NCBI RefSeq assembly: GCF_022095675.1
Contig: NZ_JAHYSG010000036.1
Span: forward strand, 39,706 to 103,705
Direction of reading: 5' to 3'
From: Dactylosporangium sp. AC04546
GTDB taxonomy: Bacteria > Actinomycetota > Actinomycetes > Mycobacteriales > Micromonosporaceae
DNA: 64,000 bases
Positions within the stretch are counted from its first letter, which is position 1. Every line of letters starts with the position of its first letter. Below are positions 50,456 through 62,224 of the stretch, in pieces. Below the pieces are notes generated by a model. The model had not been told where the DNA came from, made no database searches, and saw only the letters and a program-made list of their open reading frames with translations. The position numbers were made by a program, and so were the translations under genes.

Positions 50456-51580
50456 GTGGCGAAGGACTATTACGGGATTCTCGGCGTCAAGCGGGACTCC
50501 ACGGCGGATGAGATCAAGCGGGCCTACCGGCGGTTGGCCCGCGAGTTCCACCCGGACGTCAACCCCGACCCGGCCGCTCAGGAGAAGTTCAAAGAGATCA
50601 ACGCCGCCTACGAGGTCCTGTCCGACCCGCGCAAGCGGGAGATGGTCGACCTGGGCGGCGACCCGCTGGCGCCCAGCGGCGGCGGTGGTGGCCCCGCCGG
50701 CGGCGCGTTCGTCGGCTTCCAGGACATCATGGACGCCTTCTTCGGCACCACGTCGAGCCGCGGGCCACGCCCGCGTGTGCGGCCCGGCGCCGACGCGATC
50801 CTGCGCCTCGACCTCGACCTGCACGAGACGGCCTTCGGCGTCGAGGCGCCGATCACGGTCGACACCGCGGTGGTCTGCAACACCTGCACCGGCGCCGGCA
50901 CCGCGCCCGGCACCCACCCGCAGACCTGCGAGATCTGCGGCGGCCGCGGCGAGGTCCAGTCGGTCCAGCGCACCTTCCTCGGCCAGGTCGTGTCGGCCCG
51001 CCCGTGCTCGGCCTGCCAGGGCTTCGGCACGGTCATCCCGCACCCCTGCGCCACCTGCGGCGGCGACGGCCGGGTCCGCACCCGCCGCACGCTGACCGTC
51101 AAGATCCCGTCCGGCGTCGAGGACGGCATGCGCATCCGCCTCGCCCAGCAGGGCGAGGTCGGCCCCGGCGGCGGCCCGCCCGGCGACCTCTACGTCGAGA
51201 TCCACGAGCGCCCGCACGACGTGTACTCGCGCAAGGACGACGACCTGCACTGCCGCGTGACGGTCCCGATGACGGCGGCCGCCCTCGGCACCCGCCTGAC
51301 CATCAAGACCCTCGACGGCGAGGAGACGGTCGACGTCAAGGCCGGCACCCAGCCGACGTCCACCCTGCGCATCCGCGGCAAGGGCGTCCCGCACCTGCGC
51401 GGCACCGGCCGCGGCGACCTCTACGTCCACCTCGACGTGCGCACCCCGACCCGCCTGGAGCCGGAGCAGGAGCGCCTGCTGCGCGAGTTCGCCCGCTCCC
51501 GCGGCGAGGAGGTGGCCGAGCTGTCCAAGCAGGGCGGCTTCTTCTCGCGGATGCGGGACGCCTTCAACGGCCACGCGTGA
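50456..51580 (+). CDS. dnaJ: Chaperone DnaJ (DnaJ2 type, HrcA regulon)
   Basis: A 374-residue type I J-protein. The J domain (1–70) has the HPD motif at 32–34 (REFHPDVNP). The Gly-rich linker is short ([11 protein letters not shown]). The zinc domain has four CxxCxGxG-like repeats: [32 protein letters not shown]. The C-terminal substrate-binding domain follows. It stimulates DnaK ATPase and delivers unfolded proteins. GTG start; its stop overlaps the rsmE start (GTGA), so hrcA, dnaJ and rsmE form the classical actinobacterial unit. Confidence 0.97.
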
Positions 51581-52275
51581 GCCTGCCGCTGTTCCTGGTC
51601 GGCTCGCTGCCGGGCGAGGGGGCGTTCCGCCTCGACGGGCCTGAGGGCCACCACGCCGCCGACGTGCAGCGGATCACCGCGGGCGAGCGGCTGCTGCTCG
51701 GCGACGGCCGGGGCGGGCTCGCGACGGCCGTCGTCACCGGCGCCCGCAAGGGCGTGCTCGACCTCGACGTCGAGGGTGTCGAGCACGTGAGCGCCCCGGC
51801 TCCCGCGATCACCGTCGTGCAGGGGATCGCGAAGGGCGAGCGCGGCGAGCTCGCGGTCCAGCTCATGACCGAGCTCGGGGTCGACCGGATCGTGCCGTGG
51901 CAGGCGGCCCGCTCGATCGCGCGGTGGAAGGACGCCAAGCCCCTCGAGCGCTGGCGGTCGACCGTGCGGGAGGCGGTCAAGCAGTCCCGCCGGCCCTGGG
52001 TGCCCGAGGTCACCGAGCCGGTCCGGCGCCTCGACCTCGCGGGGTTCGTCCTCGTGTTGCACGAGGAGGCAGCGGTACCGCTGTCGGCCGTCGAGCTGCC
52101 GTCACGTGAGATCACGCTGGTCGTCGGCCCGGAGGGCGGCATCGCCCCGGAGGAGCTGGACACGCTGACAGCGGCCGGCGCCCGCCCCGTGCGGCTGGGC
52201 CGGGAGGTGCTGCGCACCTCGAGCGCCGGCGCGGCCGCGATCGCCGCGCTGTCGGTGCGGCTCGGCCGCTGGTGA
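51577..52275 (+). CDS. rsmE: 16S rRNA (uracil-1498-N3)-methyltransferase RsmE
   Basis: A 232-residue SPOUT-family enzyme that methylates U1498 of 16S rRNA using SAM. A PUA-like N-terminal part ([20 protein letters not shown]) is followed by the trefoil-knot domain with [48 protein letters not shown] and the knot motif [19 protein letters not shown], all intact. It is translationally coupled to dnaJ. The conserved neighbour expected soon after, a HIT-family gene, appears only at 62243, about 10 kb later. Confidence 0.95.
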
Positions 52276-52294
52276 CCGCGCCGAACGTTGGCGC

Positions 52295-52322
52295 TTGCAA
52301 CTTTTAAATTCTTCCGTACGAA
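52295..52322 (+). promoter_or_regulatory. Possible sigma-70-like promoter of the six-gene operon
   Basis: TTGCAA (52295–52300) and TACGAA (52317–52322) with 16 bases between them lie in an unusually AT-rich pocket (CTTTTAAATTCTTC), 112 bases before the first gene of the nuclease/kinase operon. The rest of the 159-base gap shows nothing recognised. Confidence 0.4.
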
Positions 52323-52434
52323 TGCATATCGCGGCATCCAGGGTTGTCCGCGTCAATCCCGTCTGGCAAGCTCCGTGCTTGCCCGGCGATTCACCACGGA
52401 TCGGCGGCAGTGATTTCGTGTCGCTGGAGGTGGG

Positions 52435-53847
52435 ATGGCGGGGGAGCCGGCCGTCCCGCACGGGCGTCGGTCTGTCAATTTCCTCATGCACCGGATGCGG
52501 GCGAATGAGGCGGGTGCGCCGCTGGAGTTCGAGCAGATGCTCGCCGCGCTCGTGCAGACGCTGGACCTCGGCGACGCGCGCCTGGTCCGGCCCGCGCAGG
52601 GCGACTGGGGCATCGACGTCCTGGTCGGCGACCTCGCCGGCCGGGTCACCATCTGGCAGGCGAAGTACTACCCGGACGGCGTGGACCGTGCGCGTCTGGT
52701 CAAGATCAAGGATTCGTTCAAAACCGCGCTTCGTTATGCCGCCACACACAACTATGTCATCGAGCGCTGGGTGTTGTGTGTGCCGTGCAGCCTCTATCCG
52801 GCGGTGCTTCAGGAGTGGGATCAATGGCGGTCCGCGGAACAGCGCGGGACCGGCGTCCAGATCGATCTCTGGGATGAGGCCCGGCTGCGGGAGCTGCTCA
52901 TGCGGCCGGAGGCGGCGCACGTCGCCGGGTCGTTCTATCTGGACGACGAGCCGGCCCGGCCGGCCGCGGTCCGGCTCCGGGTCGTGCCGGGCGGCGGGCC
53001 GCGGGAGGGCTGGCACGGCGGCGACGAGGTGCGCCTCGACGACCGCTGCTACCTGCTGCACGATCCGGTCGAGGAGCTGACCGCGCCCGACGGCGCCTGG
53101 GTGTCCCGGGCGGCGACGGCCGGGATGACGGAGCCGGCCCCGGGCCGGGTGCGGCTGCGCCAGGTCGAGGTGGTGCGCTCCGGCGCGGCCGCGACACTGC
53201 ACCGCGACGCGCTGCTGGCGCAGGCCGAGCTGCTGGCCGCCGCGGGCGGGCGCGGCGGGCTGCCGCGCCGGGTGGCCCTGCACCGGCACGCCGGCGGCGT
53301 GACGCTCGTGACGGCGCAGCCGCCGGGCCCGACCTGGACCGAGGCGTACCAGCAGCGCACACCCGACCGGCTCGGCGCGGCGGCGGCCCTGGCCGCGCTG
53401 CTCCCGGTGGGCGCCGCGCTGGCCGAGCTGCACCGCCGCGGCCACGCCCACCGGGCCCTGGACGGCGACGCCGTGATCCTCGCGGGCAAGGGCCGCGAGG
53501 GGACCCTGCGCGACGCCGGGCTCGCCGGGATGCCGGCGGCGCCCGGCGAGGGGCCGGCCCGCTACCGGGCGCCCGAGCAGCAGCTTCTCGTCCGGCGGGA
53601 CGGTCCGGGGCCGCACACCGACGTGTACCGGCTGGCCGCGCTCGCGTACCACACGCTCGCCGGGCATCCGCCCACCCCGGCGCCGAACCCGCCGGTCGCG
53701 GCCACGCTCCCCGGGTTCCCGCCGGCCCTGGACGAGACGCTGCGGCGGGCCCTGGACGCCGACCCCGCCCGCCGCCCGGCCCTGCCCGGACTGATCGCGG
53801 AGCTCGGCGCCGGCCGGGCCGCGCTGTCCCGCAGCGGGGTCGCATGA
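52435..53847 (+). CDS. Mrr-like endonuclease fused to a pseudokinase
   Basis: A 470-residue fusion. Residues 25–170 are a PD-(D/E)xK nuclease of the Mrr type: E33 in LEFEQML, D61 in GDWGIDVLVGD and the Q75-x-K77 pair in TIWQAKYY. Residues about 190–460 look like a Ser/Thr kinase C-lobe with RYRAPEQ and DVYRLAALAYHTLAG, but HRD is HRA (AHRALDGDAVIL), the catalytic-loop Asn is lost and DFG is DAG. It is thus a pseudokinase, perhaps reading the signal of the true kinase at 59573. GGAGG precedes the ATG. The gene end overlaps the helicase start (ATGA). First gene of a six-gene operon. Confidence 0.85.
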   Translation: MAGEPAVPHGRRSVNFLMHRMRANEAGAPLEFEQMLAALVQTLDLGDARLVRPAQGDWGIDVLVGDLAGRVTIWQAKYYPDGVDRARLVKIKDSFKTALRYAATHNYVIERWVLCVPCSLYPAVLQEWDQWRSAEQRGTGVQIDLWDEARLRELLMRPEAAHVAGSFYLDDEPARPAAVRLRVVPGGGPREGWHGGDEVRLDDRCYLLHDPVEELTAPDGAWVSRAATAGMTEPAPGRVRLRQVEVVRSGAAATLHRDALLAQAELLAAAGGRGGLPRRVALHRHAGGVTLVTAQPPGPTWTEAYQQRTPDRLGAAAALAALLPVGAALAELHRRGHAHRALDGDAVILAGKGREGTLRDAGLAGMPAAPGEGPARYRAPEQQLLVRRDGPGPHTDVYRLAALAYHTLAGHPPTPAPNPPVAATLPGFPPALDETLRRALDADPARRPALPGLIAELGAGRAALSRSGVA

Positions 53848-56804
53848 CGTCCGTGCCCGTCGCCGTGCGCGGCCCGATCGCCGTGATCCCCTCGCCGAAG
53901 GCGATCGCGCAGCTCGGCCAGCGGCCGGACGAGCTGCTCCAGGAGCTGCGGGACCTCTCGGCCGGCGGCGTGCTGCCGGGGCGCCTGGAGCCGCAGGATC
54001 GGCGGCTGCTGCTGTACACCCGCCGGTCCGTGGCCTCGCTGTATCTCACCAAGCGCGCGGACGCGTATCGCCTGGGCAGCGTGTCGCGCCGGTCGTTCCG
54101 GGACGAGGAGCGGCTGCTCGCCGGGGCGCTGCTGGTGCGCTGCCCGGGCGGCTGGCGGTCCTACCAGGACGTGCGCGACCTGGGCGACCCCGGCGGCGGG
54201 CTCCTGCAGCCGGCCCGCTCGGCGCACTGGCCGGAGCTGTGCCGCGCGTGGGACAGCCTCGGCGCGCTCGCCCAGGCGGTGCCGGCCGCACCGGACCGCC
54301 ACACCGCGTTCCTCGACCTGCTGACCGGCGTGGTGGAGGCCGGCCGGGACATCGAGATCGGCCAGAAGAGCAACGCGCGGCCCATGCCGTACCGCAGCCA
54401 CCGCGCGACCGGGGAGCAGCGCTTCTCGGGCCGGGGCGTGTACACGTTCGAGCTGACCCGCCGCGCCGACCTCCAGAAGGGCGACCTGGTCTACGTCGAG
54501 GAGCAGCCGGCGCTGCGCGGACGGGTGGAGCGCAACACCGGCCGCGAGCTGACCGTCCGGTTCGAGGGCGCGCTCGACTACCGCACCATCCCGCCCCAGG
54601 GCGCGTTCCGGCCGCTGCCGAGCACCCGGGTGTACCGCGCGCAGCTCGACGCCGTCGAGTCCGTGCGCGCCGGCAGGGTGGCGAACCCGGCAGTGCCGGC
54701 CGCCCTGATCGACCGGCGCTTCGCGGCGTACCCCCTGGACCGGGCCGCCCGGCCGCGGCGGTCGCTGGACGCCCGCCAGCTGGAGGCGTTCCACCGCGCC
54801 CTGGCCGTGCCCGACCTCCTGCTGGTGCTCGGGCCGCCGGGCACCGGCAAGACCACGACCATCGTGGAGACGGCGGTCGCCGCCGCGGCCCGAGGCGAGC
54901 GGGTGCTCATCACCTCGCACACCAACCGCGCCGTCGACAACGTCCTGGAGCACCTGCCCCCGGATCTCCGGGCGGTCCGGGTGGGCAACGAGGGTTCGAT
55001 GACCTCCGCCGCGCGGGCCCTGCTGGTGGACACCCAGGTCGACGCGGTGCGCCAGGGCATCCTCGCCACGACCGAGGCCGTCGCGGAGCAGCTGTCCGGT
55101 TTCGGGCGGGACCGGGACGTGATCGACCGGTGGGCGGCCCAGCTCACGAGCCGGGTCGCCGACGCCCGCGCCGCCGAGGACCGGGCGGTCGCCACGGACG
55201 GCGCGCTGGCCGCGGCCACGCGGCGCGCGCACGAGCCGATCCGGGCCGGGCTCGACGCCGCCCGGACCGAGGCCGACCGGTGCCGGACGGTCGTGCAGCG
55301 CCTCGACCGGGACCTCGCCGCGGCCCGCGACCGCACGGCCGGCGCGCAGGCCCGGGCCGCCGCCAGGGGAGCGTTCGCGTTCGCGCACCGCTGGTGGGCC
55401 GGCCGGGCCGAACGGCGGGCCGGCGAGCTGCGGGCGGCACGGTCCGCGGCGCAGGCCGAGGCCGGCGGGGCGGACGCCCGCGCGGCGGAGCTGCTCGCCC
55501 AGGCGGCGACGCTGGTGGCCGGCGATCCCGAGGCCGCCCGGCTGACCGCCGAACGCGACCGGTTCCGCGAGGAGCGCGACGGCGCGCTCGCCGACGCCGC
55601 CCGGGCCGCCGAGGTCATCCGGGGCAGCCTGCGCCGGTTCACCGCCGTGCCGCCGGCCCCCGCCGACCTGGCCGGCCACGAGCGGTTCGCGCAGTGGGCC
55701 GGTGGCTCGATCGCCATGCTCGTGCGGCGCAGCGCGCTGCTGGCCGAGTGGCGGGCGCGGATCGCCACCGCCGACGTGCCGCTGCAGCGCGAGCTGGTCC
55801 GCTACGCCGACGTGGTGGCCGCCACCTGCATCGGCACGGCGACCAGCCTGCACCTCGCCGGCCTCGACTTCGACCTGGCCATCGTCGACGAGGCCGGGCA
55901 GATCTCCACGCCGAACCTGCTCGTCCCGCTGGTCCGGGCCCGCCGGGGCGTGCTCGTCGGCGATCACCGGCAGCTGCCACCGTTCCTCGACGACGACGTG
56001 CGGCGCTGGGCGGACGGGCTGGCCCGGACCTCGGACCTGCCGGAGCCGGTCGTCCGCCAGATCGGCGAGCTGCTGCGCCAGAGCGGTTTCGAGCGGCTGT
56101 ACCCCGCGGCCGGCCGGGACAACGGCGTCATGCTCAGCGTGCAGCGGCGCATGCCACGGGTGCTGGCCGACTTCGTCTCGGCCGCCTTCTACGACGGGCT
56201 GCTGGGCACCGAACACCGCGGCGGCGCGGCCGACCCGGTGTTCCGCAGCCCGTTCGCGATGGTGGACACGGCCGACCGGCTCCCGCAGGAGCGGTACGAG
56301 GAGCGCCTGTCCGGCGGCGAGGCGTGGCAGCAGCACGGCTACCGCAACGCCGCCGAGGCGGAACTGATCGCCGAGCTGGTGCACCGCGGCGCCGGCGCCT
56401 ACCCGACGTGGGCGGTGATCGTGCCGTACAAGGCGCAGGTCGCGCTGGTCGTGGACCGGCTCGGTGCCCTGCTCGGCGACGCCGGGCCGGTCGCCGACAA
56501 CGTCGGGACGGTCGACTCGTTCCAGGGCGGCGAGCGGGACCTCGTGGTCTTCGGCTTCACCCGCAGCAACGACCGGGGCGAGGTGGGCTTCCTCACCGAG
56601 CTGCGCCGCCTGAACGTCGCGATCACCCGGGCCCGGCAGCAGCTGGTGCTGGTGGGCGACAGCACCACGCTCGGCGCCGCCACCGACCGCGGGTTCGCCG
56701 CGCTGATCCGCTCGCTGAACACGCACCTCGCCCGGCACGGGGACGTGCGGCGCTCCGCGGATGTGCTGTCGCTGCTGCGCGCCACGGCGGGGCAGCGCCC
56801 GTGA
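53844..56804 (+). CDS. UPF1-like superfamily 1 helicase with coiled-coil insert
   Basis: A 986-residue helicase. Residues 195–255 form a beta-barrel (DLVYVEEQPALRGRVERNTG) like the 1B domain of UPF1 relatives. The core has Walker A GPPGTGKTTT (330–339), motif Ia TSHTNRAVDNVL, Walker B VDEAGQIS (about 680–687), motif III GDHRQLPP, motif IV QRRMP, motif V TVDSFQGGERD (about 887–897) and motif VI NVAITRARQQ (about 923–932). A helical, Ala/Arg/Glu-rich insert (about 410–600) is probably a coiled coil. It should move 5' to 3' on single-stranded DNA or RNA. Four-base overlaps to both neighbours show tight coupling to the nuclease–pseudokinase and the winged-helix gene. Confidence 0.93.
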   Translation: MTSVPVAVRGPIAVIPSPKAIAQLGQRPDELLQELRDLSAGGVLPGRLEPQDRRLLLYTRRSVASLYLTKRADAYRLGSVSRRSFRDEERLLAGALLVRCPGGWRSYQDVRDLGDPGGGLLQPARSAHWPELCRAWDSLGALAQAVPAAPDRHTAFLDLLTGVVEAGRDIEIGQKSNARPMPYRSHRATGEQRFSGRGVYTFELTRRADLQKGDLVYVEEQPALRGRVERNTGRELTVRFEGALDYRTIPPQGAFRPLPSTRVYRAQLDAVESVRAGRVANPAVPAALIDRRFAAYPLDRAARPRRSLDARQLEAFHRALAVPDLLLVLGPPGTGKTTTIVETAVAAAARGERVLITSHTNRAVDNVLEHLPPDLRAVRVGNEGSMTSAARALLVDTQVDAVRQGILATTEAVAEQLSGFGRDRDVIDRWAAQLTSRVADARAAEDRAVATDGALAAATRRAHEPIRAGLDAARTEADRCRTVVQRLDRDLAAARDRTAGAQARAAARGAFAFAHRWWAGRAERRAGELRAARSAAQAEAGGADARAAELLAQAATLVAGDPEAARLTAERDRFREERDGALADAARAAEVIRGSLRRFTAVPPAPADLAGHERFAQWAGGSIAMLVRRSALLAEWRARIATADVPLQRELVRYADVVAATCIGTATSLHLAGLDFDLAIVDEAGQISTPNLLVPLVRARRGVLVGDHRQLPPFLDDDVRRWADGLARTSDLPEPVVRQIGELLRQSGFERLYPAAGRDNGVMLSVQRRMPRVLADFVSAAFYDGLLGTEHRGGAADPVFRSPFAMVDTADRLPQERYEERLSGGEAWQQHGYRNAAEAELIAELVHRGAGAYPTWAVIVPYKAQVALVVDRLGALLGDAGPVADNVGTVDSFQGGERDLVVFGFTRSNDRGEVGFLTELRRLNVAITRARQQLVLVGDSTTLGAATDRGFAALIRSLNTHLARHGDVRRSADVLSLLRATAGQRP

Positions 56805-57976
56805 AGCGGCTCATCTACCCGGCCCGCAGGGCGGTCGAGCACGCCGTCACGGTCCCCGGCGTGCAGCCGCTGCGCCTGTTCCCGGTGCTCTGGCCGCTCT
56901 GGCAGGTGGAGATCAGCGCGAACGTGTACGAGGAGCCGTCGTACGAGATCGTCGACCACTTCCTGGTCCGGGCGGTCGCCGAGGCCGGGCTGGACACCGG
57001 CGCGGAGCTCGCCCGCTTCCTGGCCCTGCCGGTGTCGATGGTCCAGCGCTGCCTGGCCTACCTGGCCCTCATCGGGCACGTGCGGGTCGCGGACGACCGG
57101 GTCACGCTGACCGAGCTCGGCGCCCGCGCGCTGCGGGACGGGGTCCGCTACGAGCCCAGGGAGGCCCGGCAGCTGCAGTACTTCGAGCAGTTCACCGGCC
57201 GGCCGCTGACCCGGGCCCACCACGACGGCGCGGTCACCGTCCTGCCGGCGCCCGAGGTCGCCGACGACCAGGTCACCGACGGCAGCCGCTTCCTGCCGCT
57301 GTTCTCCACGGCCCAGTTCCGGCCGGAGCTCGTCACCGCGCTCGCCGCGCGCCCCGACCGGGCCGCGTTCAACGTGCCGAGCCAGCTGCACGACCTGCGG
57401 TTCGAGGGGCAGCGGGACGGCTACCTCGCCGTCTACCTGATCGAGACGGCCGGTCACGGGCTGCTCGCCTACACCGCCGCCGCCGAGGACCGCGACACCC
57501 TTCTCGAGCGGGTCTGCGCGGAGGCGGCGGGCGTCGGCGACCTCATCGAGGCGGAGGGCCTCGGCGACCCGCGGCGCATCTGGACCGACTGGCTGCGCGA
57601 CCGGGGCGGGGAACCCGGCCTGCTGCGCCGCCTGCCGAGCGGGGTGTGGCGGGCGACCTTCGCCGCCGCCGCGTTCGGCGACCAGCCGAAGCTGCCGGTG
57701 TCCCGCGCCGGCACGTTCCAGCTGCGGCACCACCACTTCCTCCAGCTCTGGTGCGACGACGCGCGCCTGCGGCGCCAGGCGCTGCTCGAGCGCGCCCTCG
57801 GCGTCGTGCGGCTGCCGGACGTCGAGACCGTGGACCACCTCGACCGCCGGGTCCAGCAGCTGGCGCACCTGCTGGAGGTGGCGCCGGTGACCGTGGAGGA
57901 GCTCCGTGCGCACGCCGTCCGGACCGGGGCGGCCGACCGCCTGCCCCTGCTGGACGCGTTGACCGTTCAACCGTGA
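56801..57976 (+). CDS. Unrecognised winged-helix protein of the helicase–kinase operon
   Basis: A 391-residue soluble protein that I do not recognise. Residues about 38–105 read as a winged helix (YEIVDHFLVRAVAEAGL, ELARFLALPVSMVQRCLAYL, ADDRVTLTELGARAL), like initiators or regulators. The middle has strands (GAVTVLPAPEV, GYLAVYLIETAGHGLLAY), and the end is a helical bundle (LRRQALLERALGVVRL, LDRRVQQLAHLLEV). The size and the link to an SF1 helicase suggest a DNA-binding adaptor. GTG start overlaps the helicase stop. A gap of 23 bases separates it from the VWA gene, the only gap in the operon. Confidence 0.75.
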   Translation: MKRLIYPARRAVEHAVTVPGVQPLRLFPVLWPLWQVEISANVYEEPSYEIVDHFLVRAVAEAGLDTGAELARFLALPVSMVQRCLAYLALIGHVRVADDRVTLTELGARALRDGVRYEPREARQLQYFEQFTGRPLTRAHHDGAVTVLPAPEVADDQVTDGSRFLPLFSTAQFRPELVTALAARPDRAAFNVPSQLHDLRFEGQRDGYLAVYLIETAGHGLLAYTAAAEDRDTLLERVCAEAAGVGDLIEAEGLGDPRRIWTDWLRDRGGEPGLLRRLPSGVWRATFAAAAFGDQPKLPVSRAGTFQLRHHHFLQLWCDDARLRRQALLERALGVVRLPDVETVDHLDRRVQQLAHLLEVAPVTVEELRAHAVRTGAADRLPLLDALTVQP

Positions 57977-57999
57977 CTCGTCATGCCTGAAAGGACGTC

Positions 58000-58872
58000 G
58001 TGTACTCCGCCGAGATCAACCGGAACCAGCCGGCCTGCCTGCTGCTGCTCATCGACCAGTCCACTTCGATGTCGTCGGCCTGGGCCGACACGGGCACGAC
58101 GAAGGCCGGCCAGCTCGCGCTCGCGGTCAACCGCATCCTGGGCAACGCCGTGATGCTGTGCACCAAGGGCGACAACCGTGTCTTCGACTACTTCGAGGTG
58201 GGCATCCTCGGCTACGGCGAGGGGGTCCGGCCCATCCTCCACGGTGCCCGTCCCGGCCACGAGGTGCTGCCGATCAGCGAGCTGGCGTTCAACCCCATGC
58301 GGCTCGACCAGGTGAGACGCAAGGTGCCCGACGGCGGGGGCGGCGTGGTCGAGATCCAGACCACCCTGCCGGTGTGGGTCGACGCCGTCGCCGACGGCTG
58401 GACGCCGATGGTCGCCGCCATGCAAGAGGCCGAGCGCCTGATGGCGGACTGGTGCGCCGGCCACCGGCGGAGCTTCCCGCCCATCGTGATGAACATCACG
58501 GACGGTGAGAGCACCGACGGCGACCCGCGGGATGCCGCCGCGCGGCTGCGGTCCACGGGGACCGGCGACGGCGGCACCCTGCTGTTCAACATCCACCTGG
58601 CGAGCGGCGCCGGCAACGCGGCGACGTTCCCGGACTCGGCCACCGGCCTGCCGGACCACTACGCGTCCCTGCTGTTCGACATGTCCAGCCCGCTGCCGCC
58701 GCCGATGTCCGCCGCCGCCGAGCACCTCGGGTACCAGGTCCAGCCCGGCTCCCGCGGCTTCCTGTACAACGCCGAGGCGTACCGGATGATCGAGTTCCTC
58801 GACATCGGCACCCGCGCGGCCACGCCCACCGGCCTGCTGGAGCTCACCGCCGGGCCGGAGTCGATGCGGTGA
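58000..58872 (+). CDS. TerY-type VWA domain protein
   Basis: A 290-residue protein with one von Willebrand factor A domain (about 10–245). The metal site is complete: D19-x-S21-x-S23 in LIDQSTSMS, the Thr in GWTPMVAAM and the Asp in NITDGEST. This matches the TerY group (adjacent strand FEVGILGYG). In TerY-P triads the VWA protein is coupled to a PP2C phosphatase and a kinase and is thought to be the target or scaffold. A GAAAGGA site fits the GTG start. Its stop overlaps the phosphatase start (GTGA). No TerD or TerC is in the window. Confidence 0.9.
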   Translation: MYSAEINRNQPACLLLLIDQSTSMSSAWADTGTTKAGQLALAVNRILGNAVMLCTKGDNRVFDYFEVGILGYGEGVRPILHGARPGHEVLPISELAFNPMRLDQVRRKVPDGGGGVVEIQTTLPVWVDAVADGWTPMVAAMQEAERLMADWCAGHRRSFPPIVMNITDGESTDGDPRDAAARLRSTGTGDGGTLLFNIHLASGAGNAATFPDSATGLPDHYASLLFDMSSPLPPPMSAAAEHLGYQVQPGSRGFLYNAEAYRMIEFLDIGTRAATPTGLLELTAGPESMR

Positions 58873-59576
58873 CCGAGGTGGCGGCGGTGATCCGGACCGT
58901 GCCCAAGCTCGGCCGCGGGCCGGCCGAGAACGAGGACAGCGCCACGATGGACGCCGCGCTCGGCCGGTTCGCCGTCGCCGACGGGGCGTCCACCTCGGCC
59001 CGCCCGGAGGTCTGGAGCCGGCTGCTGGTGTCGGCGTGCGTGGAGGAGGACGCCGACCCGCTGGAGCCGCGGACGCTCGCCCACCTGCGCGAGCGCTGGC
59101 TGGCGGCGGTCGCCGACCCGGCGCTGCCGTGGTTCGCCCAGGCCAAGCTGGAACAGGGCGCCGACGCCGCCTTCGTCAGCCTGCGGCTCGATCCGGTCGC
59201 CGCCACCTACCAGGCCACCGGCGTCGGTGACTCGTGCCTGTTCCACCTGCGGGCCGACCGCATCGTGCGGGTCGGGCCGGTCGAGCGGGCCGGCGGGTTC
59301 AACCGCTTCCCGCTGCTGCTCAGCAGCCGGGCGGCCGCGGCCGCACCGGGCGGGACGGCGCTCGCCGGGAGCTACCGGCCGGGTGACGTCTTCGCGCTGG
59401 CGACCGACGCGATGGCGCACTTCCTGCTCGGCGTGCACGAGCGCATCGGCCGGCTGCCGTCGCTCGCGGCGCTGGTCCGCAGCCCGGAGACGTTCGCCCG
59501 GCAGACCGCGCGGTACCGCTGGCGGGGCCGGATCGCCAACGACGACACGACGCTGTGCGTGGTGACCACCAGGTGA
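58869..59576 (+). CDS. PP2C-type Ser/Thr phosphatase
   Basis: A 235-residue single-domain phosphatase. Metal-binding motifs are present: E20/N21 with D23 in GPAENEDSAT, D38-G39 in AVADGAST, the ATGVGDSCLF strand, FALATDAMA and the terminal ANDDTTLCVV. Short for the family, as in TerY-P triads, with a small flap region. It should remove phosphate from the kinase, the VWA protein or the nuclease–pseudokinase. Four-base overlaps at both ends couple it to the VWA and kinase genes. Confidence 0.92.
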   Translation: MTEVAAVIRTVPKLGRGPAENEDSATMDAALGRFAVADGASTSARPEVWSRLLVSACVEEDADPLEPRTLAHLRERWLAAVADPALPWFAQAKLEQGADAAFVSLRLDPVAATYQATGVGDSCLFHLRADRIVRVGPVERAGGFNRFPLLLSSRAAAAAPGGTALAGSYRPGDVFALATDAMAHFLLGVHERIGRLPSLAALVRSPETFARQTARYRWRGRIANDDTTLCVVTTR

Positions 59577-61492
59577 GGCTGCCGCAGCCGTTCGACTACA
59601 AGATGGCCCTGCAGGCCCCGACGGTGTCCTTCCTCGACGAGGAGCTGCGCCGCTGTGACCCGCGGCGCGACCCGCTGGGCATGCCGGCCAGCGTCGCCGG
59701 CGGGTTCGCCGTCACCTTCGACGTGGCCGTCGAGCGGCACCGGTACGCCGTGCGCTGCTTCTACCGGCAGGGCAACCACCTCCAGCAGCGGTACGCGGCG
59801 GTGGCGAAGTTCGTCCGGGACAGCCGCCTGCCGTTCCTCGTCGAGGTGGACTACCTGGACGCCGGCATCCGGGTCGGCACGGACGTGTACCCCGTCGTGC
59901 GGATGCCGTGGGTCGACGGCGCGCGGCTCGACGACTGGATCGACGACCACCTGGACGATCCGCACGCCCTGAACCGGGTCCGCCGCAACATCGCCGACGC
60001 GGTCGCCGGACTGCGCGGGCACGACGCCGCCCACGGCGACCTCCAGCACGGCAACATCCTGGTGCGGCCCGACGGGGCCGTCCGGCTGGTCGACTACGAC
60101 GGCATGTACCTGCCCGCGCTGCGCGGCTACGGCGCGGCCGAGCAGGGGCACCGCAACTATCAGCACCCCGAGCGGAGGACACAGTTCGACGCGACGCTCG
60201 ACCTGTTCGCGGCCCACGTGATCGACCTCTCGCTGGCCGGGCTCATCCACGAGCCGGGGCTCTGGCGGGAGCTCAACAAGAACAACGGCGAGGGCCTGCT
60301 GTTCTCGGCCGGCGACTTCGCCGACCCGGGCTCGTCCCCGGCCTTCGCCCGGCTGGCCGCGATACCGCCGCTCGCGGAGCCCGCGCGGCGGCTGCACCGG
60401 GCGTGCGAGGCCGGGTTCGACGGGATCGCCGCGGCCCTGGCCGGCGAGCCGGTCAGCGGCTCTGCACGCGGCCGGTCCAGCGCCCGGCCCGGTGGCCCGC
60501 AGCCGCTCGTCCTGCAGGCGACCGACCGGGCCGGCCTGCTGGCGCACCAGGGCGACGAGGCGACCGTCGTCGGCCGGGTCCTGCGCACGAAGACCATCCA
60601 GCGCACCGGGACCATCACGTTCCTGAACTTCGGCGACTTCCGGCGGGGCGCCTTCACCGTCGTCGCCTGGGAACGGGGGCACCGCGACCTGGTGCGGGCG
60701 TTCGGTTCGCCCGAGGACCTCGACGGGAAGTGGGTGTCCGTCACCGGGCTGCTGTCGATCTTCGAGAAGGGCGGGGTGCGGACGCCGCAGATCGAGCTGC
60801 CCAACGCCCGCGCCGTCCGCGTGCTCACCGGGGCGCAGGCGACCGCGCTGCTCGCCTCTGCCGCGACGGCCCCAGGGGCGGCCACCGGGGCATCCGCGAG
60901 GGCGGCGTCGACGGCCGCGGGTGGCCCGGTCGCCGGCCTCGACGACCAGCTCAGCCAGCTCTACACATCAACCGGGTTCACCAGCCGGCTCGGCGGGGCC
61001 ACGGGTGCCACAGCGGCGACCCCGCCGGCGGCCGGCCCGGCGAGCCCGCCGCCGCGGCAATCGACGCCGCCACCACGCCGGCCCACACCACCGCCGCGCC
61101 AGCCGAGCACCGGCCGGACGCCGCCGGGCCGGCCGTTCTCGCCACCTCCCGGCCCGTCCTCAGCGCCGCCCCACTCCGGCCCGCCGTACTCGGGGCCGCC
61201 CTACGGCGGGCCGTCGCGGCCGACCGGCCCGCCCTGGCCGGGCCGCACACCCGCGCCCCACCAGCGGCCGGACGACTTCGACGGCATCGGCCTGATCGCG
61301 GTCGCCGCGGCCCTCTTCCTGGGCCCGGCCGGCCTGATGGTGAGCGTGTACGCCATGTCGCGGGAGCGTCTCCGGCACCCCGTCGACCGGGTGGCCGGGG
61401 TGGTCGCGATCCCGATCTCGATCCTCTGGATGCTGTACTGCTGCTGCGTCGGGTTCAACAACTTCGCGCAGGGATTGCTGGCCGGCGGCTGA
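59573..61492 (+). CDS. Membrane-anchored protein kinase with OB-fold-like domain
   Basis: A 639-residue kinase of the TerY-P type. The kinase domain covers about 40–290: the beta-3 position reads YAVRCF (Arg where Lys is usual), the catalytic loop HGDLQHGN (154–161) is intact, and DFG is DYD (174–176). Residues about 320–410 read as an OB-type beta-barrel (ATVVGRVLRTKTIQRTG, GKWVSVTGLLSIFEKGG), suited to nucleic acid. A Pro-rich stretch (about 475–560) is followed by two membrane helices near the C-terminus (about 566–590 and 602–630). It could join nucleic-acid sensing to membrane localisation. Last gene of the operon; the SDR gene beyond is convergent. Confidence 0.9.
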   Translation: MRLPQPFDYKMALQAPTVSFLDEELRRCDPRRDPLGMPASVAGGFAVTFDVAVERHRYAVRCFYRQGNHLQQRYAAVAKFVRDSRLPFLVEVDYLDAGIRVGTDVYPVVRMPWVDGARLDDWIDDHLDDPHALNRVRRNIADAVAGLRGHDAAHGDLQHGNILVRPDGAVRLVDYDGMYLPALRGYGAAEQGHRNYQHPERRTQFDATLDLFAAHVIDLSLAGLIHEPGLWRELNKNNGEGLLFSAGDFADPGSSPAFARLAAIPPLAEPARRLHRACEAGFDGIAAALAGEPVSGSARGRSSARPGGPQPLVLQATDRAGLLAHQGDEATVVGRVLRTKTIQRTGTITFLNFGDFRRGAFTVVAWERGHRDLVRAFGSPEDLDGKWVSVTGLLSIFEKGGVRTPQIELPNARAVRVLTGAQATALLASAATAPGAATGASARAASTAAGGPVAGLDDQLSQLYTSTGFTSRLGGATGATAATPPAAGPASPPPRQSTPPPRRPTPPPRQPSTGRTPPGRPFSPPPGPSSAPPHSGPPYSGPPYGGPSRPTGPPWPGRTPAPHQRPDDFDGIGLIAVAAALFLGPAGLMVSVYAMSRERLRHPVDRVAGVVAIPISILWMLYCCCVGFNNFAQGLLAGG

Positions 61493-61495
61493 CGG

Positions 61496-62224
61496 TCAGC
61501 GGAAGTAGCTGGCGCCGTTCAGATCCAGCACCGAGCCCGACGACCACTCCGACGACGCCAGGAACAGCACCGCCGCGGCGACCTCCTCGGGCCGCGCGAC
61601 CCGGTTGAACGGGCTCTGCGCACGGATCGCGTCGCCGTCGCCCTGGTCCATGATCGCCTGGCCCACGTCGGTGGCGACGAAGCCGGGGGCGACGGCGTTG
61701 ACGGCGATGCCGCTCGGGCCGAGGGCCAGCGCGAGCGACTGGGTCATCGAGTTGAGCCCGGCCTTCGCCGCGCCGTAGGCGGGGTAGCGGGGCTCGCCAC
61801 GGAACGCGCCGCGCGACGACACGTTGACGATCCGCCCGCCCGGGCCCAGGTGGCGCGCCGCGCAGAAGCAGACGTTGGCCGGGCCGAGCAGGTTGACGGC
61901 GAGCGTCTCCTGCCAGGCCGCCTGCCACTCGTCGTAGCCCTGCTCCAGGATCGGGTGCTCGATCGCCGTCGCCGCGTTGTTCACGACCACGTCCAGGCCG
62001 CCGAGGGCCGCCGCGGCGGCGTCGACGAACGCGCGCACCGATGCCGGGTCGCCGAGGTCGCCCGACACGATCGCGTGGCCCTCGCCGGGCAGGGCGGCGA
62101 GGTCGAGGCCGGGGGAGTTGCGGTGGTGCAGGGCGACGCGGTCGCCGTTCGCGGCGAAGGCGTGGGCGATCGCGGCGCCGATGCCCCGGGACGCGCCCGT
62201 GACCAGGACTCTACGTGCAGACAT
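61496..62224 (-). CDS. Short-chain dehydrogenase/reductase (SDR)
   Basis: A 242-residue classical SDR. The NAD(P) loop TGASRGIG is at about 8–15, NNAAT follows, and the active site has Ser in NVSSRG and Tyr/Lys in YPAYGAAKAG. The C-terminus SGSVLDLNGASYFR is typical of FabG-like oxidoreductases. Substrate unknown. It is convergent with the kinase gene, with three bases between the stops, and divergent from the HIT gene (18 bases). It probably belongs to the flanking chromosome and not to the nuclease–kinase operon. Confidence 0.92.
   Translation of the reverse strand: MSARRVLVTGASRGIGAAIAHAFAANGDRVALHHRNSPGLDLAALPGEGHAIVSGDLGDPASVRAFVDAAAAALGGLDVVVNNAATAIEHPILEQGYDEWQAAWQETLAVNLLGPANVCFCAARHLGPGGRIVNVSSRGAFRGEPRYPAYGAAKAGLNSMTQSLALALGPSGIAVNAVAPGFVATDVGQAIMDQGDGDAIRAQSPFNRVARPEEVAAAVLFLASSEWSSGSVLDLNGASYFR

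Follow-up and report, generated by a model that had tools for sequence, protein, structure and literature searches.

Do a nuclease, a helicase and a set of phosphorylation proteins that share one actinobacterial gene block also share one function? This question is raised by six genes at positions 52435–61492 of a 64,000-nucleotide stretch of DNA from Dactylosporangium sp. AC04546 (hereafter the window; contig NZ_JAHYSG010000036.1, positions 39,706–103,705), which a sequence-only reading had described as a single operon and a candidate defence system. We found that the six genes are real but form no fixed unit. The conserved unit is a three-gene core (genes 1–3), which by its sequence is a split relative of the defence system Mokosh type I, and which is joined here to a TerY-P triad (genes 4–6). 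Loci, genomes and contigs are given by L, G and C numbers where they have to be told apart.

Gene content of the block

Open reading frame (ORF) reading of the window revealed six co-directional + strand ORFs that fill 52435–61492 and encode proteins of 470, 986, 391, 290, 235, and 639 residues. Neighboring genes overlap by 4 bases at each of four junctions (genes 1/2, 2/3, 4/5, and 5/6), and a 23-base gap (57977–57999) separates genes 3 and 4, which confirms the linkage described earlier. The GTG starts of gene 3 (56801) and gene 6 (59573) were picked by their overlap with the preceding stop. The gene spacing predicts a single transcription unit, made up as follows:

52435..53847, + strand: gene 1, nuclease and pseudokinase; N-terminal Mrr/LmuA/Avs4-type PD-(D/E)xK nuclease (about residues 15–170) and C-terminal pseudokinase (about residues 175–460)
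53844..56804, + strand: gene 2, UPF1/IGHMBP2-like superfamily 1 helicase corresponding to the helicase part of MkoA (assigned by PADLOC, NCBIfam, PDB chains, and motifs)
56801..57976, + strand: gene 3, winged-helix protein whose N-terminal third is an MkoB homologue; the C-terminal part is conserved, and a PLD motif is absent
58000..58872, + strand: gene 4, TerY-like VWA protein (PADLOC TerY, 1.6e-84; metal ion-dependent adhesion site string DQSTS, i.e., DxSxS)
58869..59576, + strand: gene 5, TerY-P phosphatase of the PP2C type (PADLOC TerY-P PP2C, 2.1e-28; acidic strings present)
59573..61492, + strand: gene 6, Ser/Thr kinase with OB domain, STK_OB (PADLOC STK_OB, 1.6e-86; HGDLQHGN and DYDG strings)

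The motif strings given for genes 1, 2, 4, 5, and 6 are those that we take to be catalytic motifs. Among the six genes, Pfam cut-offs were reached by gene 2 and the gene-4 VWA match alone, Pfam being far weaker than PADLOC.

Gene 1 matched the LmuA nuclease of Lamassu (2.7e-31) and the kinase part of MkoA (9.7e-10) in PADLOC, and its nuclease string GID...QAK is intact. Its kinase-like domain is best read as a pseudokinase that has lost catalytic-loop residues: in an alignment of 20 homologues, counted by eye, the catalytic-loop Asn was missing in all 20 and the HRD Asp in 16, and the DFG-position Asp was retained in 20/20. The nuclease–pseudokinase assignment of the sequence-only reading is therefore upheld. 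A restriction-like system, in which the helicase would target the Mrr-like nuclease to cut incoming DNA directly and TerY-P would be a minor regulator, is in line with a match to Pfam Mrr_cat (E 0.0063, below the Pfam cut-off) and with fold matches of the predicted gene-1 model to the Avs4 effector, AspBHI, and MspJI. We consider such a system improbable, as DUF4145-like or hydrophobic modules occur on the same chassis elsewhere (see below), which an exchangeable suicide effector would fit better.

The gene-1 nuclease is homologous to LmuA and shares 44% identity across 170 aa with the LmuA encoded at the same genome's Lamassu locus, which lies on another contig (C162; L031 13253–17774; LmuA 9.7e-98, LmuB 8e-207). 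However, the six genes contain no LmuB match (PADLOC), and the window nuclease sits on a pseudokinase. An endonuclease/exonuclease/phosphatase-family gene adjoins the own-genome Lamassu locus. Furthermore, two Streptomyces plasmid loci (L123 8037–8954 and L124 7869–8993) carry LmuA-type nuclease genes in apparent Lamassu operons; the serine/threonine protein kinase label on these genes is probably a mis-annotation.

Gene 2 matched MkoA (PDLC03920) at 8.8e-102 over residues 226–959, NCBIfam TIGR00376 at 4e-65 (below the model's cut-off), and the SMUBP-2, DNA2, UPF1, and SEN1 chains. The strings GPPGTGKT (Walker A) and DEAG are intact, so the UPF1-like helicase proposed earlier is well founded. 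The winged-helix protein encoded by gene 3 had been called unknown, and is rather an MkoB/CnuE-type partner: it matched the MkoB N-terminus in PADLOC (2.1e-12), and hhalign aligned residues 10–135 with a probability of 91.9 (E 7.1e-7). No match to gene 3 was found in Pfam, among PDB sequences, or in plasmids, and it showed neither a PLD family (Pfam) nor an HxK motif. No known fold was found for its C-terminus, which carries little weight as the fold searches mainly spanned residues 27–115.

Genes 4–6 are contiguous and make up a complete TerY-P set by PADLOC (VWA, PP2C, and STK_OB), in agreement with the triad named in the sequence-only reading. In Pfam, gene 5 matched PP2C_2 at 0.061 only, and gene 4 had no match in phages. 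The triad nearest to that of the window was found in G632 (VWA 69%, PP2C 62%, and first 280 kinase residues 65% identical), a genome without a gene-3 match in the family-genome search. The C-terminus of gene 6 carries two hydrophobic segments that resemble transmembrane (TM) helices, at residues 572–590 and 610–628. Two such TM-like segments end both core-linked TerY-P kinases (59573–61492 in the window, and L032 1825–3924), which suggests a membrane-anchored switch. Relative to known TerY-P triads, these segments are a possible difference; another is the position of the genes, which follow a Mokosh-like core in the same orientation after 23 bases.

Comparison with Mokosh and other phosphorylation-linked systems

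The core shares with Mokosh type I an MkoA-type helicase, a kinase-like domain, and an MkoB-type winged-helix partner in the same order. However, the Mokosh I proteins compared below carry an intact kinase on the helicase, whereas in the window the kinase-like domain is degenerate and lies on a separate protein, joined to a nuclease; furthermore, the MkoB relative lacks the PLD motif, and TerY-P is attached. For type I, NERD and PLD domains are listed in the part of PMC10952713 that deals with it, and a passage of PMC11291487 says that Mokosh degrades viral transcripts. We compared five Mokosh I plasmid loci, i.e., Oscillatoria, Allocoleopsis, Agrobacterium fabrum, Sinorhizobium chiapasense, and S. 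medicae, which were chosen, mostly by kinase label, among 25 listed of 379 matching records, the rhizobial ones being near relatives. All five proteins have the kinase in cis before the helicase, with an intact HRD…N loop. The PLD HxK motif of MkoB was kept in both cyanobacterial loci and absent from 3/3 rhizobial ones. In each of the three rhizobial operons (L117 4679–10372, L120 3679–9375, and L121 3637–9375), a lone PP2C gene with PP2C motif strings overlaps the MkoB end, and L120 and L121 also contain a DUF3800 gene; no annotated PP2C adjoins the two cyanobacterial loci. The rhizobial operons are a precedent for a phosphatase-coupled Mokosh, in terms of existence and not of frequency.

The closest parallel to the combination with TerY-P is provided by CoCoNuT. 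According to passages of PMC11090510, UPF1-like CnuH helicases are typically followed by the winged helix-turn-helix (wHTH)–effector protein CnuE, and types II and III-A include TerY-P, so that a UPF1-like helicase, a downstream wHTH protein, and TerY-P share one locus, as in the window. However, no match to CnuB/CnuC (McrB GTPase/McrC) of CoCoNuT II/III was found among the six genes (Pfam), and the next genes are rsmE and an oxidoreductase gene. Moreover, the window kinase is of the OB type, as opposed to the zinc ribbon reported in PMC11090510 where it describes the CoCoNuT kinase, the nuclease resides on a separate pseudokinase protein, and gene 3 has no HEPN match (Pfam).

Other systems resemble single aspects of the block. 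PglW of BREX type 2, as described in part of PMC12839542, also carries a nuclease followed by an inactive kinase domain, and gene 1 matched the kinase part of PglW at 4.7e-8 (PADLOC). In contrast to gene 1, the PglW chain of that description unites a NERD nuclease, the pseudokinase, an active kinase, and wHTH modules, and no other BREX protein was matched among the six genes (Pfam, PADLOC, and NCBIfam). The kinase–kinase–phosphatase (KKP) module, a kinase–phosphatase anti-phage system in the sections of PMC11341870 concerned with it, likewise balances kinases and a PP2C over a toxic output; there the kinases are the toxin, whereas the likely effector of the window is a nuclease. A trio of kinase, PP2C, and vWA beside actinobacterial GAP1-N2 systems is mentioned in a portion of PMC7159879. 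In a literature search of partial coverage, no title dealt with the combination of a split Mokosh core and TerY-P; the TerY-P survey may mention related loci. Judged from sequence, what appears to be new here is a Mokosh-like effector chassis with a lost cis-kinase that is joined to TerY-P, both modules being of known defence kinds.

Distribution of the core and its insertion site

We searched 101 relatives, 354 family genomes, and a phylum sample of 396, with the own genome included in the gene-3 counts. As ORF calls are partly wrong on high-GC DNA, core loci were defined by profile searches of six frames. Gene-3 relatives occurred in 10/101 relatives and 38/354 family genomes; the phylum sample yielded gene 3 itself and three fragments at 1e-4 to 4e-4 only. 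The 38 family genomes comprise 20 with the longer type, 17 with an N-terminal match only, and one with a weak fragment. The core is patchy, with all three genes, in the order 1–2–3, in 18/354 family genomes and genes 2–3 only, without a detected gene 1, in two more. Together with G064 (again 1–2–3) and Frankia sp. AgB32, this makes 20 loci with the full core. The G550 contig stops at gene 3. At L027 (9504–16649; G004), the core helicase gene is interrupted by the insertion of a 567-aa gene on the opposite strand, which is perhaps a mobile element. A partial helicase match accompanied the N-terminal-only gene-3 match in all 12 loci read (of 17). Loci of genus g30 (L030, L087–L090, and L102–L108) combine a partial helicase with a relative of the gene-3 N-terminus, with no pseudokinase gene detected, and are a possible second branch of the system.

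TerY matches were found in 6/101 relatives. In the 354 family genomes, ten were strong (E 1.4e-56 or better), and five more genomes gave weak matches (2.7e-6 to 1e-3). Core and strong TerY coincided in two family genomes, i.e., those of the window and of D. siamense, and were adjacent in both. The proposal that the six genes are one composition was not borne out: linkage was found within the core and within the triad, but core and triad were mostly unlinked, and with TerY-P at 2 of the 20 core loci a fixed six-gene system is ruled out. TerY-P was not seen at the other 18, and is therefore not required. Of these, 17 lie in genomes without a strong TerY match, and the Frankia contig ends about 0.6 kb past gene 3, which leaves one side unread.

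These counts bear on the chief rival explanation, in which a Mokosh-like core and TerY-P are two independent defence modules that were acquired at the same site and are transcribed together while keeping separate mechanisms. Each module occurs alone, as shown by the 18 core loci and by 8/10 strong TerY matches, whose genomes lack the core; a passage of PMC11090510, citing Gao 2020, names TerY-P-like modules that stand alone and include an OB-fold kinase as anti-phage systems. However, the layout in which core and triad are joined differs between the window (one strand, 23-base gap) and D. siamense (divergent), a lone PP2C is present in each of the three rhizobial Mokosh operons, and the text on CoCoNuT types II and III-A in the same source places a UPF1-like helicase, a wHTH protein, and TerY-P together. 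We therefore regard two separate systems as a serious but rather unlikely explanation.

Across the core loci, the pseudokinase C-terminus of gene 1 is retained and the N-terminus varies: it is of the Mrr/LmuA type at six loci, DUF4145/HsdR-N-like at five, Cap4-like at five, hydrophobic at three, and absent at one (L081, with no N-terminal module within the gene-1 ORF). The six Mrr-type loci were assigned by whole-length profile matches, and five of them, together with the window genome's own LmuA, were also aligned with the window. Pfam and PADLOC were run on seven loci (L078, L023, L080, L083, L026, L028, and L085). The DUF4145-like type is reflected by a Pfam match in L023 and L080 and by PADLOC PDC-M16A in L078, L023, and L080. 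The Cap4-like L083 and L026 reached 0.016 and 0.0032 in Pfam, both below the cut-off, and 7.6e-6 and 0.0047 for LmuA in PADLOC. For L028 and L085, no N-terminal family was found by either; hydrophobic N-terminal stretches were seen in L028, L084, and L085. L077, L079, L082, L027, L086, and L084 were typed by eye. On a helicase tree of 22 rows, the module types do not scatter: three changes, the minimum for four types, account for the 19 typed rows, which rules out frequent recent effector swapping. A single clade of the Mrr rows found neither support nor rejection (approximately unbiased test, p-AU 0.489). The varying module tells chassis parts from payload parts.

At its insertion site, the block is bordered by the following features:

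51580..52275, + strand: rsmE, left flank; adjoins the SDR (short-chain dehydrogenase/reductase) gene in 6/6 congeners
52276..52434, + strand: leader that follows rsmE and precedes gene 1; presumed to contain the promoter and to form the left border of the block (read from the sequence)
61496..62224, − strand: SDR oxidoreductase gene, right flank; adjoins rsmE in 6/6 congeners

In six other Dactylosporangium genomes, the aligned parts of rsmE and the SDR gene are 36, 41, 47, 157, 258, and 712 bases apart; the SDR alignment of G003 is fragmented, and the 712-base gap of G001 is big enough for a small gene. No six-gene block was present at this junction in any of the six, and the block is therefore variable cargo at a housekeeping junction. 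A fixed housekeeping block conserved in relatives is ruled out by the same finding.

These observations also speak to a stress or RNA-quality-control operon, in which the UPF1-like helicase and TerY-P would answer metal or translation stress and any defence effect would be incidental. The helicase matches to UPF1, SMUBP-2, and SEN1 would fit, as would the link between TerY-P triads and tellurite resistance that is made in a passage of PMC11090510. However, patchy spread, the empty congener junction, the Lamassu-type nuclease, and alternative N-terminal modules are hard to reconcile with such a role, and no TerC/TerD match was found among the six genes (Pfam), so we deem it highly unlikely.

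Furthermore, 99 flanking ORFs beside 19 core loci (window excluded) were surveyed against 42 other called ORFs of the window as control. Flank ORFs came from a G+C-based caller, some are probably not genes, and ORFs of >1100 aa were left out. At 1e-20, the flanks matched 104 PADLOC families and the control two, a tally of families and not of loci. Ten neighbor ORFs were scanned singly: eight had no match and two were of DrmD/DrmA type, one of these full length. A full-length DrmD of DISARM (E 0) lies at L084 5799–8930, next to a core whose gene 1 is of the hydrophobic type. Pfam found GmrSD_C in two and Recombinase in two of the 99 ORFs.

Proposed function and its meaning

We favor, with moderate confidence, the view that the block is an anti-phage system that combines a Mokosh-type sensor, a pseudokinase-borne nuclease, and a TerY-P switch. 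Foreign nucleic acid would be sensed by the helicase and its winged-helix partner (genes 2 and 3), or these would load on it. The pseudokinase would couple the nuclease to this pair, so that sensing would unleash the nuclease, and the TerY-P kinase and phosphatase would set the complex on or off. TerY-P may supply in trans the kinase activity that gene 1 has lost in cis. Like the function itself, complex formation, the nucleic acid sensed, the order of events, the phage phenotype, and whether phosphorylation locks or triggers the complex are inferences.

Several lines of evidence were counted for the anti-phage reading. Both halves of the block match defence families in PADLOC, which bears out the defence role suggested earlier at the family level. 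Gene 1 shares its nuclease with Lamassu and Avs4, alternative N-terminal modules exist, the core is patchy, and the congener junction is empty. The intact cis-kinase in 5/5 Mokosh proteins and the overlapping PP2C in 3/3 rhizobial operons were counted for it as well, and so were the adjacency of core and TerY-P in both family genomes that have the core and a strong TerY match, and the other defence genes, such as DrmD, that neighbor some core loci.

Other results weigh against it. TerY-P stands beside the core at only two loci, and a weak TerY match (2.7e-6) in the core genome G569 lies far from the core. Co-occurrence by presence only was not significant (2/354 genomes, hypergeometric p 0.10, with 20 genomes having genes 2–3). 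The two linked cases fall in one genus, Dactylosporangium, and descent from a single origin, followed by rearrangement, was not rejected (p-AU 0.281 for the helicase and 0.315 for the triad); independent double acquisition of TerY-P is accordingly not shown, and the layout alone differs. Given the low number of changes on the helicase tree, exchange of the N-terminal module is old and not frequent. The overall confidence of the predicted models was low (pLDDT 49 for gene 1 and 55 for gene 3). Finally, the window has no defence island in its own flanks, and the flank contrast is weak, as the commonest PADLOC families match 5/99 ORFs and about 20 of the families are matched by a single DrmD-like helicase.

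The anti-phage reading has one immediate use. With a dead kinase in a Mokosh-type core and a separate, apparently active kinase/phosphatase pair, the block allows a direct test of what phosphorylation does, as effector, sensor, kinase, and phosphatase are each encoded by a gene of their own and can be knocked out one at a time. More tentatively, the core could be an undescribed actinobacterial immune chassis, in which a pseudokinase adaptor plugs interchangeable effectors (a Lamassu/Avs-type nuclease, a Cap4-type nuclease, a DUF4145 module, or a membrane module) into a Mokosh-type sensor, with TerY-P acting in trans as a kinase/phosphatase switch. If this is true, Mokosh, Lamassu/Avs, and TerY-P would be exchangeable parts of one signaling design.

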